Shown: one piece after another, positions 1,808 through 11,309 of the stretch
Numbering within the stretch: position 1 is the stretch's first letter
Layout: each line of letters opens with the position of its first letter
Made by a program: the position numbers and the translations under genes
Source of the DNA: Elusimicrobiota bacterium
GTDB taxonomy: Bacteria > Elusimicrobiota > Elusimicrobia > F11
Assembly: GCA_022709485.1 (NCBI GenBank)
Contig: JAKLIS010000013.1
Location: 1 to 13,408 of the forward strand
DNA length: 13,408 nucleotides
Direction: 5' to 3'
Notes under the pieces: generated by a model
The model's input: the letters and a program-made list of their open reading frames with translations, nothing else
Told to the model about the DNA's origin: nothing
Databases searched by the model: none

Positions 1808-3169
1808 TTACGGCAGGCCCCATTCCTTTTTTACCTTCTCGTAAACCTCTCGAGGAAGAAAAACCGCGGAAGGCTTGTCCTCCCCGGAGAGCCACTGGAG
1901 TAACTGGACCATGTTTTTTTCTTCCATGGCCACGCATCCTTCTGTTCCGGAGTTTTCACGGCGCCAGACATGGAAGAAAATGCAACTTCCTCCTCCCTTG
2001 AGAGTGGTGGGGGCATTTTGCTGAACATTAATAACCCATTTATAAAGGTGATCCCGCCTTTTCATGGTTTCTGCGGAATCCCAATCTCTCTTTAGACTGA
2101 TAGGGCAGTCAAAAATTTTGTTGTATGAGGTGGACGTGGGATCATCCACGCAAACCCAACCCTCGGTCACCTTTTGGTAGGCCCAGTTTGTTTTTTCGGG
2201 CGGGGTATCCGCATAGCCGTAAGCTTGGCCGACGTAAAAAACACCGGCGGGCGTGGTGAGATCCCCCTCCCTTTTGACGGGGCCCGGCACGACGGGAGTG
2301 TGAAGGCCTGTTCCCCAAGCCAATCCCTTTAAACCCAACACCACGGGCCATTGGGCCTCGGCGGCGGCCCATCCATTCCCATTCCGTCTAAAAAGCTGGA
2401 GCTGGCCCTGAACGGAATCCCATGTGGGAGCCGTCACCAAAATAAGTTGTTTTATTGCAGAAGAAAGAGGCAAATTTTTATTCGGAGCCAACAAATCTTT
2501 GTAAAGCGCGGGGTCTCCCAAGGGTTCATTTCGAAGAGCGAATTTGCTCCATTCGGGATCGTCGAAATGCCACCATTCCGTGGGAAGCCCCAAAAAACCC
2601 TCGCGTTCCATTGCCTCTTGAAGCCGGTCCCGGTTTTTAATGATATTGAGCGGAAGATTTTTATTCTTTCGGTAGGCTTTGGCGCTGAACTCGTCAAACT
2701 CAGTGGGCATCGGAAGTTCCTGGCCGTTTTTGTCCACGAGCGTGCAATCGATGGAAGCACCCCTGTTATGGCGGGACCCTGTTTTGGGGTTGGCCACAAA
2801 GCGCTGATCCGGTGCCACGATCCAAAGAATTTCTTGGACCGATACCGGCCGGTAACAATCCCATATCTTTAATCCGAATCCTTCTTTTTCAAGACGGACC
2901 TGGACCCGGGCGAGGCGCTCTGCCACCGGTTCACAAAGAAGGCAGTCATTGGCCATATACAATTTGCGGCCCGTGAAATTATGAGTGGTGGCGTATCTGA
3001 GATCCACATGAATCCCGGGCGCCAATGTTTTTATATCAATCAATGGAGGAGCCTCCTCTGCAGTGACGATGGGAGCGGGCAAAAACATTCCGAGGCCGAC
3101 GGCAATCCTCGTCAAGGTGATCTGCACGAAACGAATTAAATTTCCATTCTCGATTTTGATTAATTTCAT
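1808..3169 (-). CDS. Secreted fusion: VanX/DdpX-type D-Ala-D-Ala dipeptidase (M15D) plus L,D-transpeptidase (YkuD)
   Basis: This 453-residue protein opens with a signal-type segment (basic start, hydrophobic 11-36, TAEEA). Residues about 42-220 form an M15D dipeptidase, which splits D-Ala-D-Ala with zinc. It has SRHNRGASID with His134 and Asp141 (seven apart, as in VanX), EWWH with Glu198 and His201, and the YRP arginine at 107. Residues about 240-440 form an L,D-transpeptidase, which uses a cysteine to make 3-3 peptidoglycan crosslinks or related bonds. It has GDLTTPAGVF (302-311), His400 and GTEGCVAM with Cys412. Both active sites look complete. VanX alone is about 200 residues, so this is a true fusion with no frame break. 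An in-frame TGA directly before the ATG fixes the earliest start. No vanH or vanA ligase is nearby, so wall remodelling or recycling is likelier than glycopeptide resistance. Confidence 0.92.
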   Translation of the reverse strand: MKLIKIENGNLIRFVQITLTRIAVGLGMFLPAPIVTAEEAPPLIDIKTLAPGIHVDLRYATTHNFTGRKLYMANDCLLCEPVAERLARVQVRLEKEGFGLKIWDCYRPVSVQEILWIVAPDQRFVANPKTGSRHNRGASIDCTLVDKNGQELPMPTEFDEFSAKAYRKNKNLPLNIIKNRDRLQEAMEREGFLGLPTEWWHFDDPEWSKFALRNEPLGDPALYKDLLAPNKNLPLSSAIKQLILVTAPTWDSVQGQLQLFRRNGNGWAAAEAQWPVVLGLKGLAWGTGLHTPVVPGPVKREGDLTTPAGVFYVGQAYGYADTPPEKTNWAYQKVTEGWVCVDDPTSTSYNKIFDCPISLKRDWDSAETMKRRDHLYKWVINVQQNAPTTLKGGGSCIFFHVWRRENSGTEGCVAMEEKNMVQLLQWLSGEDKPSAVFLPREVYEKVKKEWGLP

Positions 3170-9548: not shown

Positions 9549-10148
9549 ATGAGACAGGGGAAACCGGAAGTTTTAAAGCAAATTTTGATTGGCGTGGGCG
9601 TTGTTTTTATTTTTCTATCTGTTTTGATTTTGGGCTTGGGCATTTGGGAAGGCTATTCCAGCGTTCGTCAAAACGTCCATATGATCACGGTCCCGGGTTT
9701 TCATTCTCTCAAGTTAAAATCCGCGGGGCCCTACATGGGTATCTATCAGCATTCTGGGCGCGGAGCGGTGCCCATCAAGCTTTTAACTGGGATGGAATAC
9801 CGTTTAATTTCGAAGGACGGAACGCGGGAAGTGCCCGTCAACGGCAATCGGACGGGAGACATTATGATGCGCGGAGGCCGGGAGGCCATGATTGCCCTTA
9901 ACTTTATTTTAGAAGAGGCCGGCGAATATACTTTTAGCGCCTTCAATTTGGGCGAGGAAAAAGCGGTTTCTGAAATTCCTTTGATTCTTTTTGGACAAGG
10001 AGCCCAAGGGTTTAAACAATCCTTTGTGATTGGCTTTTTATTCTTCGTGCTTCTTCTTACCTTGGGTATTTTCCTTCTTTTGCAGGCCAAAAAACTGAAT
10101 CCTATTAAATCGGAGGGATCTCCTCCCCACGGGAACCGGGGCAAATAG
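9549..10148 (+). CDS. Two-helix membrane protein of unknown function
   Basis: I do not recognise this 199-residue protein. It has a membrane helix at about 11-33, an exposed region at 34-155 and a second helix at about 157-179, then a short basic tail (KKLNPIKSEGSPPHGNRGK). With a short N-terminal cytoplasmic stub, the central region is likely periplasmic. It reads as beta-rich (MITVPGFHSLKLKSAGPYMGIYQ; TREVPVNGNRTGDIMMRGGREAMIALNFILEEAGEYTFSAF), with no cysteines or obvious catalytic residues. The closing AGEYTFSAF pattern resembles beta-sandwich domains. It has one of the best ribosome-binding sites here (AAGGAG at 9535). It lies 92 bases after the reductase gene and 99 bases before the Rho-type gene. 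A role in envelope sensing or assembly is possible but unsupported. Confidence 0.75.
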   Translation: MRQGKPEVLKQILIGVGVVFIFLSVLILGLGIWEGYSSVRQNVHMITVPGFHSLKLKSAGPYMGIYQHSGRGAVPIKLLTGMEYRLISKDGTREVPVNGNRTGDIMMRGGREAMIALNFILEEAGEYTFSAFNLGEEKAVSEIPLILFGQGAQGFKQSFVIGFLFFVLLLTLGIFLLLQAKKLNPIKSEGSPPHGNRGK

Positions 10149-10212: not shown

Positions 10213-10232
10213 GGGTCCGTTATTTAGGACCC
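10213..10232 (+). other. Hairpin and start-stop codon in the leader of the Rho-type gene
   Basis: GGGTCC (10213-10218) pairs exactly with GGACCC (10227-10232) around eight A/T-rich bases. It is followed at once by ATG-TAA (10233-10238), a start codon next to a stop, in frame with the GTG start ten bases further on. There is no T-run, so it is not an intrinsic terminator. rho genes are autoregulated through their leaders in E. coli, so a regulatory role is conceivable, but this is inference. Confidence 0.4.
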
Positions 10233-10247
10233 ATGTAAAATCAAAAA

Positions 10248-11309
10248 GTGAGATCAAAAGCTCGTTTTCATAGAAAATTCCGTTCTTCGCGGCCAAACCG
10301 ATATAACCCCGGCGGTTATAATCCCAATGGTTATAACCCGGGCGGTTATCAAACGAATGGTCATCAGCACAATGGCTACCGGCAGAATGGGTACCGATCC
10401 GACCGCCGAAACGGCTATCGTGCGAACCAGCCTCCCGGGCCATCTGAGGCCGAGAGGCGTTTTTTAAGCCGCGTTTCAATTGATCCTCATCCGCGGATCA
10501 ACTTGGAATCGGGGCTTTCAGAATTCACCACTCGCGCCATGGACATTGTCTGCCCGATCGGTCGCGGCCAACGGGGGCTCATTGTGTCGCCTCCCAAATC
10601 GGGAAAAACCACCGTTTTAAGACACCTCACACAGGCCATCACCAATGCAAATCCTGACATGAAGGTTTATTGCCTTCTTATCGATGAACGTCCCGAAGAA
10701 GTAACCGAATTTAAACGAAGCGTTACCGCGGAAGTGCGCTGGTCCTCACTGGATCAACCCTATGAACACCATATCGGCGTGGCTCAAACTCTCATGAAAC
10801 AGGCGGTTGAAGAAGCGGACGCGGGAAAAGACGTCATGATTTTATTGGACTCCTTGACAAGGCTCGCTCGTGTTCACAATAGCCAAGTCCGTGGTATGGG
10901 GAGGACCATGTCTGGGGGGGTTGATGCCGCGGGTCTTTTGATTCCACGCAAGATCTTTGGTTCGGCTCGAAATATTGAAGGCGGCGGGTCTCTCGGAATT
11001 ATCGCGACCATATTGGTCCAGACGGGGAGCCGAATGGACGATGTCATTTTTCAGGAATTTAAAGGAACTGGAAACATGGAACTGGTTTTATCCCGGGAGA
11101 TTTCAGAACGTCGAATTTTTCCCGCCATTCAGATCCGCGAATCCGGAACAAGAAAAGAAGAATTACTATTTAGTCCGGAAGAATTAAAAGCCACCCGGCT
11201 TTTGCGCGCGGCATTGGCTGAAATGAGCGACGTGGAAGCCGCGCAACAGCTCGTAAATCTTCTTCAGAAATTTCCCACCAACGGGCAACTTCTCTCCTCC
11301 CTGCAATAA
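10248..11309 (+). CDS. rho: Rho-type transcription termination factor lacking the OB RNA-binding domain, with NGY-repeat N-terminus
   Basis: The 353-residue protein contains the complete Rho RecA-type ATPase/translocase core: GRGQRGLIVSPPKSGKTT with Lys120, DERPEEVTE (146-154), Walker B VMILLDSLTRLAR (196-208), the Q-loop region ending SGGVDAAGL, GSARNIEGGGSLG and the R-loop region FKGTGNMELVLSREISERRIFPAI. Usual Rho is about 420 residues, with a helical N-terminal domain and an OB fold that binds C-rich RNA. Both are missing. Residues 1-62 are instead basic and low-complexity, with six five-residue repeats (NPGGY, NPNGY, NPGGY, QTNGH, QHNGY, RQNGY at 20-49), and the core begins at about 68. 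An in-frame TAA at 10236 excludes an upstream extension. The GTG start has no Shine-Dalgarno site. It could be the cell's only Rho or a specialised paralogue. Confidence 0.93.
   Translation: MRSKARFHRKFRSSRPNRYNPGGYNPNGYNPGGYQTNGHQHNGYRQNGYRSDRRNGYRANQPPGPSEAERRFLSRVSIDPHPRINLESGLSEFTTRAMDIVCPIGRGQRGLIVSPPKSGKTTVLRHLTQAITNANPDMKVYCLLIDERPEEVTEFKRSVTAEVRWSSLDQPYEHHIGVAQTLMKQAVEEADAGKDVMILLDSLTRLARVHNSQVRGMGRTMSGGVDAAGLLIPRKIFGSARNIEGGGSLGIIATILVQTGSRMDDVIFQEFKGTGNMELVLSREISERRIFPAIQIRESGTRKEELLFSPEELKATRLLRAALAEMSDVEAAQQLVNLLQKFPTNGQLLSSLQ
10305..10394 (+). repeat. Six 15-base tandem coding repeats (NGY pentapeptides)
   Basis: Six consecutive 15-base units encode x-x-N/G-G-Y/H. The first three (built on GGCGGTTATAACCC-like sequence) are most alike in DNA, and the later ones have diverged. 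The unit size preserves frame, so copy number could change without breaking the gene. A seventh NGY follows out of register at residues 55-57. Confidence 0.8.

Follow-up and report, generated by a model that had tools for sequence, protein, structure and literature searches.

Rho paralogues without the OB domain, found beside OB-bearing Rho in Elusimicrobiota and Omnitrophota

Introduction

Classical Rho picks C-rich rut sites through its OB domain, which is its primary RNA-binding domain, and it is thought to need this domain to find RNA. Here we describe a Rho-type gene whose product has a complete ATPase core and no match to that domain. The gene lies at positions 10248..11309 on the forward strand of a 13,408-nucleotide stretch of DNA from an Elusimicrobiota bacterium (GTDB lineage Bacteria; Elusimicrobiota; Elusimicrobia; F11), which is positions 1 to 13,408 of contig JAKLIS010000013.1 in GenBank assembly GCA_022709485.1 and is referred to below as the window. 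We call this protein and its relatives in Elusimicrobiota and Omnitrophota OB-less Rho.

The closest described proteins are canonical Rho (models TIGR00767 and NF006886) and a shortened paralogue with its own model, NF041509 (paralog_Rho2, 'Rho, short form'). Rho proteins with additional RNA-interacting segments are also on record. Bacteroides thetaiotaomicron Rho is reported to interact with RNA through a disordered region, which has a 176-residue KE-rich part and a 68-residue N/Q-rich part (PMC13269538), a hydrophilic insertion stimulates RNA binding by Mycobacterium tuberculosis Rho (PMC4499133), and Rhodobacter capsulatus offers a precedent for Rho within an RNase E complex (PMC3071783).

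Results

A complete Rho core begins near residue 66 of the window protein, as NF006886 matches residues 68-351 and the best Rho chain in the PDB aligns from residue 66, so that the open reading frame at 10248-11309 supplies the whole ATPase core (residues ~66-353). This bears out a preliminary description of the DNA that had placed the start of the core at about residue 68. Profile searches found no match to PF07497 (OB) or PF07498 (Rho_N) in the protein. The same description had held that the DNA leaves no room for an OB domain in frame, and we agree: an in-frame TAA stands at 10236-10238 and the preceding gene ends at 10148. The elements concerned are as follows.

10248..11309, forward strand: OB-less Rho paralogue, 353 residues, GTG start
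10233..10238, forward strand: in-frame ATG followed immediately by TAA (10236-10238), upstream of the GTG start, as read from the sequence
9549..10148, forward strand: upstream gene, 199 residues, with two hydrophobic stretches by eye; it has no Pfam match and hence no OB match

Given the in-frame ATG at 10233 and the TAA that follows it at once, the true start of the gene may involve a start-stop or re-initiation site; the ATG-TAA may otherwise be a recent nonsense change. An AGGA is present at 10226-10229, just 5' of the ATG-TAA, which itself ends 9 bases before the GTG.

With canonical Rho the window protein shares the ATPase core, the P-loop, the catalytic Glu, the Q- and R-loop regions and the arginine finger, and solved Rho chains are 45-52% identical to the window core over 276-293 aligned residues. 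It scores 376.2 bits against NF006886 (cut-off 315), matching model positions 129-412 only, and 359.6 bits against TIGR00767, which is below the cut-off of 509.45. It differs from canonical Rho in having neither an OB nor a Rho_N domain, in belonging to a separate clade (support 100/100) and in coexisting with an OB-bearing Rho. The export ATPases FliI/SctN are much more distant, with scores far below the curated cut-offs (e.g. 79 vs 619.1) and 19-26% identity among the matches listed.

NF041509 resembles the window protein in that it, too, describes a shortened Rho paralogue, and its 360 positions are close to the length of the protein. However, the first ~70 positions of this model cover the OB region (in L058, a Verrucomicrobiota short Rho, model position 3 falls on residue 47 and PF07497 spans 46-115), and the window protein matches model positions 69-359 only, at 323.6 bits vs a cut-off of 628. 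Membership in NF041509 is thus ruled out, the score being too low and the OB region of the model missing; the cut-off was reached in 0/21 genomes. Short Rhos of Verrucomicrobiota (L039, L040, L041, L048, L053 and L058) are likewise shortened, at 374-408 residues, and a second Rho match is present in 4/6 of their genomes. Unlike the window protein, all six contain PF07497 (none has a PF07498 match) and they group with the OB-bearing rows of the tree; at 377-403 bits, none of them reaches the NF041509 cut-off. With the OB region covered by NF041509 and PF07497 present in each of the Verrucomicrobiota proteins, both are different kinds of protein from OB-less Rho.

The disordered region of B. thetaiotaomicron Rho that interacts with RNA has a counterpart of sorts in the predicted disordered tail of the window protein. 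There, however, the disorder is added to a Rho whose domain figure shows the primary RNA-binding site (PMC13269538), whereas the window protein has a short Arg-rich tail and the primary site is missing. The preliminary description had allowed that Rho proteins of the same architecture might already have been described. We found no such description in the open-access literature searched, although databases hold many OB-less sequences, of which those with names are called 'transcription termination factor Rho'.

We scanned 340 Elusimicrobiota genomes and samples of 334 Omnitrophota and 288 Verrucomicrobiota genomes, using strict E-values that select the OB-less form and would miss remoter versions of it. 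Matches were obtained in 65/340 Elusimicrobiota genomes (E<=1e-90) and 49/334 Omnitrophota genomes (E<=1e-92), and 53 and 48 of these loci, respectively, were read. The 288 Verrucomicrobiota yielded one match past 1e-92, L039, which retains its OB domain. An OB domain was found in 0/101 of the loci read, where the OB profile reached at most 21.0 bits, and each of these loci has a single Rho frame. We judged OB presence by a gap in bit score, since an E<1e-3 cut-off flags some OB-less proteins through the linker; across 258 Rho-core frames the OB profile scores leave a gap between 21.0 and 45.4 bits, the exception being L073 at 26.7, an ambiguous frame cut by a contig end that we excluded from the OB-less count. 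An alignment of related proteins had been suggested as a check on whether the OB domain is always absent, and neither PF07497 nor PF07498 was found in any of the 35 members of the OB-less alignment, window protein included. The best 120 of 8000 scored homologues are 256-379 residues long, carry no precomputed PF07497 and have at their N-termini a short low-complexity tail or nothing.

A tree of 84 rows built from the core alone sets the 44 OB-less rows, among them the window protein (L001), apart from all others by a branch supported at 100/100; L111 and L103 were left out of the randomly chosen canonical rows. Within the OB-less clade, Elusimicrobiota and Omnitrophota rows are intermixed, and the well-supported branches require at least 3 changes; on the same tree the two phyla keep separate groups of canonical Rho. 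This difference points to horizontal transfer of OB-less Rho between the phyla, unless contigs were mis-binned. By these comparisons, OB-less Rho is a conserved family and not an accident.

Two further sequences were noted outside these sets. P0082, a protein named as Verrucomicrobiae, also looks OB-less and is possibly misplaced, and an IMG/VR 'viral' contig (L281, 3959-4918) has an OB-less Rho of 319 residues with a Lys-rich start; the contig may be a cellular one that was misfiled.

The extent of the clade bears on the explanation that a frameshift or mis-assembly removed the OB domain from a decaying gene. The in-frame ATG-TAA just 5' of the GTG start would fit such an origin, which the preliminary description had named as an event that could hide an OB domain; however, the whole clade is without the domain, the preceding gene leaves little room for one, and the catalytic residues are invariant in 104/104 OB-less cores. 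We regard this explanation as scarcely credible for the window protein, and for the family it is already refuted.

The genome of the window also encodes an OB-bearing Rho. A search of the genome for another Rho had been proposed, and its sole PF07497 match, on contig C74, is such a protein, cut by the contig end. Including this genome, a Rho OB domain is present elsewhere in 106/113 carriers tested: PF07497 was found in 58/65 Elusimicrobiota carriers and in 48/48 Omnitrophota carriers searched, G742 having been left out of the 49 as its match is cut at a contig start. PF07497 was not found in G003, G036, G021, G195, G212, G215 and G233, all of which are drafts in several contigs; in G003 another Rho fragment stands at the start of a contig. 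With an OB-bearing Rho elsewhere in the genome and the OB-less proteins forming one clade, the earlier suggestion of a specialised paralogue is strongly supported.

Coexistence of the two forms raises the possibility that OB-less Rho is a modulator subunit, entering mixed hexamers with full-length Rho and tuning termination by lowering the number of OB sites per ring. The co-occurrence in 106/113 genomes suits this idea, as do the ATP-site and arginine-finger residues that the two forms have in common. On the other hand, none of the 101 loci read has a second Rho frame, and the intermixing of two phyla in the OB-less clade while canonical Rhos stay separate makes strict co-evolution with the host Rho unlikely. 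Full conservation of the catalytic residues also exceeds what a passive diluter would need, and we consider a modulator role distinctly unlikely.

We compared residues in 104 OB-less and 77 canonical cores (L073, L111, L176, L104 and L082 were left out), taking E. coli numbering from a pairwise alignment with the window protein. The roles given below for individual residues and loops are those we assume from E. coli Rho.

10590..10610, forward strand: Walker A / P-loop PPKSGKT, residues 115-121; E. coli K184 corresponds to K120, invariant in 104/104
10683..10700, forward strand: DERPEE, in which residue 147 corresponds to E. coli E211, presumably catalytic; E147 and R148 invariant in 104/104
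10836..10853, forward strand: Walker B strand, a role we assign to Asp 201 as the equivalent of E. coli D265; invariant in 104/104
10887..10925, forward strand: Q-loop region, residues 214-226, which we take to be part of the secondary RNA site of the ring; G223 and G224 invariant in 104/104, R/K at 219 in 104/104, D226 in 99/104
11019..11033, forward strand: R-loop region, residues 258-262 (E. coli K326 corresponds to R262), presumably a channel loop; R/K at 262 in 104/104, G260 in 97/104
11151..11153, forward strand: R302, corresponding to E. coli R366 and presumably the arginine finger; invariant in 104/104

In E. coli numbering, K184, T185, E211, R212, D265, R269, G287, G288, T323, S325, R353 and R366 are invariant in 104/104 OB-less and 77/77 canonical cores, and position 326 is R or K in 104/104 OB-less cores. 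Looser loop positions in the OB-less cores are G324, kept in 97/104, and D290, kept in 99/104. The catalytic site of OB-less Rho is, as judged from these alignments, under strong constraint. Nine positions are at least 80% conserved within each group and yet different between OB-less and canonical Rho.

These patterns bear on the view that OB-less Rho is a second termination factor, a ring that NusG or some other adaptor brings to RNA polymerase and that terminates special transcripts with no need of rut. The conserved catalytic and most channel-loop positions are compatible with termination, and the core aligns with the Rho of Rho-NusG and pre-termination complexes (6duq, 6xav, 6xas). The nine group-specific positions count against it, as the partners of the OB-less ring may differ from those of canonical Rho. 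We judge an adaptor-delivered terminator to be unlikely, though deserving of consideration.

The segment that precedes the core in the window protein comprises two features.

10248..10433, forward strand: basic, predicted disordered tail, residues 1-62, net charge +12 with one acidic residue; predicted local distance difference test score (pLDDT) < 50 for residues 1-55
10302..10391, forward strand: six tandem pentapeptide repeats (15-base unit), residues 19-48, private to the window protein

The six repeats, YNPGG YNPNG YNPGG YQTNG HQHNG YRQNG, are those reported earlier in a basic N-terminal segment, and Tandem Repeats Finder returns periods of 15 and 30 bases at 10302-10361 (scores 61, 85) and at 10367-10396. 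For comparison we used the best 120 homologues. An anchor was found in 117 of them, and the tail is >=20 residues long in 101 (the 16 with shorter tails and the 3 without an anchor were left out). Two or more matches to an [NGR]GY repeat were found in 0/101 of these tails. All 101 are net positive (median +7), Arg exceeds Lys in 100/101, and median contents are 2.6% acidic residues, 21% Asn+Gln, 19.5% Arg and 12.5% Pro. An Arg-rich basic tail, mostly predicted to be disordered, is thus usual in OB-less Rho.

The reading frames also set a limit on the importance of the tail. Among the 64 of 104 OB-less cores that were readable by motif (the other 40 were not counted), at least 6 have a stop codon leaving <20 residues before the conserved block and hence no room for a tail, so the tail cannot be required throughout the family. 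We conclude from these sequences that it is common, similar in composition and apparently dispensable. The earlier proposal that an NGY-repeat tail stands in for the OB domain is therefore retained in part: a basic Arg-rich tail is the rule, while the NGY repeat is private to one protein and some members have no tail room. An NGY repeat as the defining feature of the family is ruled out, as it was seen in none of the 101 homologue tails compared with the window protein, and so is substitution of the tail for the OB domain in every member.

Neighbourhoods were read by profile searches of stop-to-stop frames, with an RNase E/G profile built from one sequence and an ABC-F profile from five; flanks were unequal in length and gene calls in high-GC loci are unreliable. 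In Omnitrophota, 18/48 OB-less loci have a same-strand ABC-F gene within 1 kb (12 upstream, 6 downstream), compared with 0/19 canonical-Rho control loci from Omnitrophota (20 were chosen, one of which had no Rho match). In a check of six ABC-F proteins the best models were EttA-, Uup-, NF011646- and ribosomal-protection-like, and only L215 and L152 pass a curated ABC-F cut-off (NF000355). In Elusimicrobiota, 32/53 loci have a same-strand RNase E/G gene on their upstream side, at no more than 4 kb in 27 cases. Near a few Omnitrophota loci there is a cold-shock protein, an RRM-type protein or an RsuA-type pseudouridine synthase. ABC-F or RNase E/G adjacency is a trait of sub-lineages and does not define the OB-less clade.

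The ABC-F genes admit another explanation, in which the neighbour helps ribosomes to translate the Arg/Pro-rich tail itself and the function of Rho is unrelated to translation. YfmR and YkpA/YbiT have been studied for the translation of proline-rich or highly charged stretches (PMC11381351), and the tails are rich in Arg and Pro. Yet ABC-F is absent from the surrounding 1 kb at 30/48 Omnitrophota loci, and we hold this explanation to be very unlikely.

The window gene order is common to the relative G001, where it runs aldo/keto reductase, membrane-type protein, Rho, cyclase and heptosyltransferase; the upstream 199-residue gene is a neighbour of the same cluster there. Two small genes without Pfam matches recur elsewhere. 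The first (P0121; L133, 7212-7814), about 200 residues long (201 beside the Elusimicrobiota copies of OB-less Rho), has no NCBIfam match either and was clustered in 12/41 loci of the first neighbourhood set, mostly one gene upstream of OB-less Rho. The second (P0122; L214, 7704-7946), of ~81 residues, lies directly 3' of OB-less Rho in 3 Omnitrophota loci.

Elsewhere in the window we noted a 45-base inverted repeat at 1221-1311 (arms 89% complementary, 1 base between them) of the short palindromic repeat type, crossed by a mechanical open reading frame at 1131-1319. A small RF-1-domain protein of 118 residues with a GGQ motif (1386-1742) is ArfB-like and falls below the ArfB cut-off, and at 1808-3169 D-Ala-D-Ala dipeptidase (PF01427) and L,D-transpeptidase (PF03734) domains are joined in one protein.

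Discussion

We tentatively propose, as a real if still less than probable reading of these sequences, that the OB-less paralogue is a ring translocase without rut specificity that works not in rut-directed termination but probably in translation or RNA-decay settings. It would act beside the OB-bearing Rho of the genome. Sequence conservation and predicted fold indicate that it keeps the Rho motor, which forms a ring and translocates RNA, together with the ATP site and the RNA loops of the central channel. Because the OB domain is missing, loading is predicted to differ from that of canonical Rho, as the preliminary description had suggested: RNA would be engaged through the central channel without rut recognition, and the disordered Arg-rich tail, where present, may tether it. 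Such tethering is in line with the M. tuberculosis insertion (PMC4499133) and the B. thetaiotaomicron disordered region (PMC13269538). With less confidence, given that the neighbourhoods concern part of the family only, RNA might then be remodelled or cleared in translation or decay settings.

Several observations weigh against this proposal. The P-loop position K181 (E. coli) is Gly in 55/104 OB-less cores and K/R in 71/77 canonical ones, and hence the motor is not identical to that of canonical Rho. At least six members have no tail room. The 12 loci with ABC-F upstream fall in one clade and thus represent one event, and the 6 with ABC-F downstream need 4 tree changes, so that independent ABC-F events are few; in Elusimicrobiota, ABC-F occurs within about 4 kb in 3/53 loci only, always on the opposite strand. 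The RNase E/G label calls for 9 changes on the tree, but several unlinked loci have short upstream contigs, so these do not amount to nine events and the linkage may be one old arrangement. RNase E/G moreover sits in a longer cell-wall gene cluster, which in the representative L133 includes PBP2, RodA, an amidase, a racemase and a Rid-family gene, and it was counted without a canonical-Rho control in Elusimicrobiota. Reading of the DNA found no ABC-F or RNase E/G gene at the window locus or in its nearest relatives, G001 and G003.

A broader version of the rut-independent translocase proposal is that a ring derived from Rho, common to the two phyla in part through horizontal transfer, has left termination, having lost the OB domain and usually carrying an Arg-rich tether, and that its work is on RNA that is bound by ribosomes or decaying, in company with ABC-F or RNase E/G. 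We think this version somewhat unlikely.

For annotation, the family is a caution that some proteins entered under the name 'transcription termination factor Rho' may not be terminators that depend on rut. OB-less Rho also bears on whether Rho-type rings have jobs outside termination. As a natural Rho with its catalytic site intact and its OB domain absent, kept beside a normal Rho, it would let the abilities of the motor alone be asked directly.
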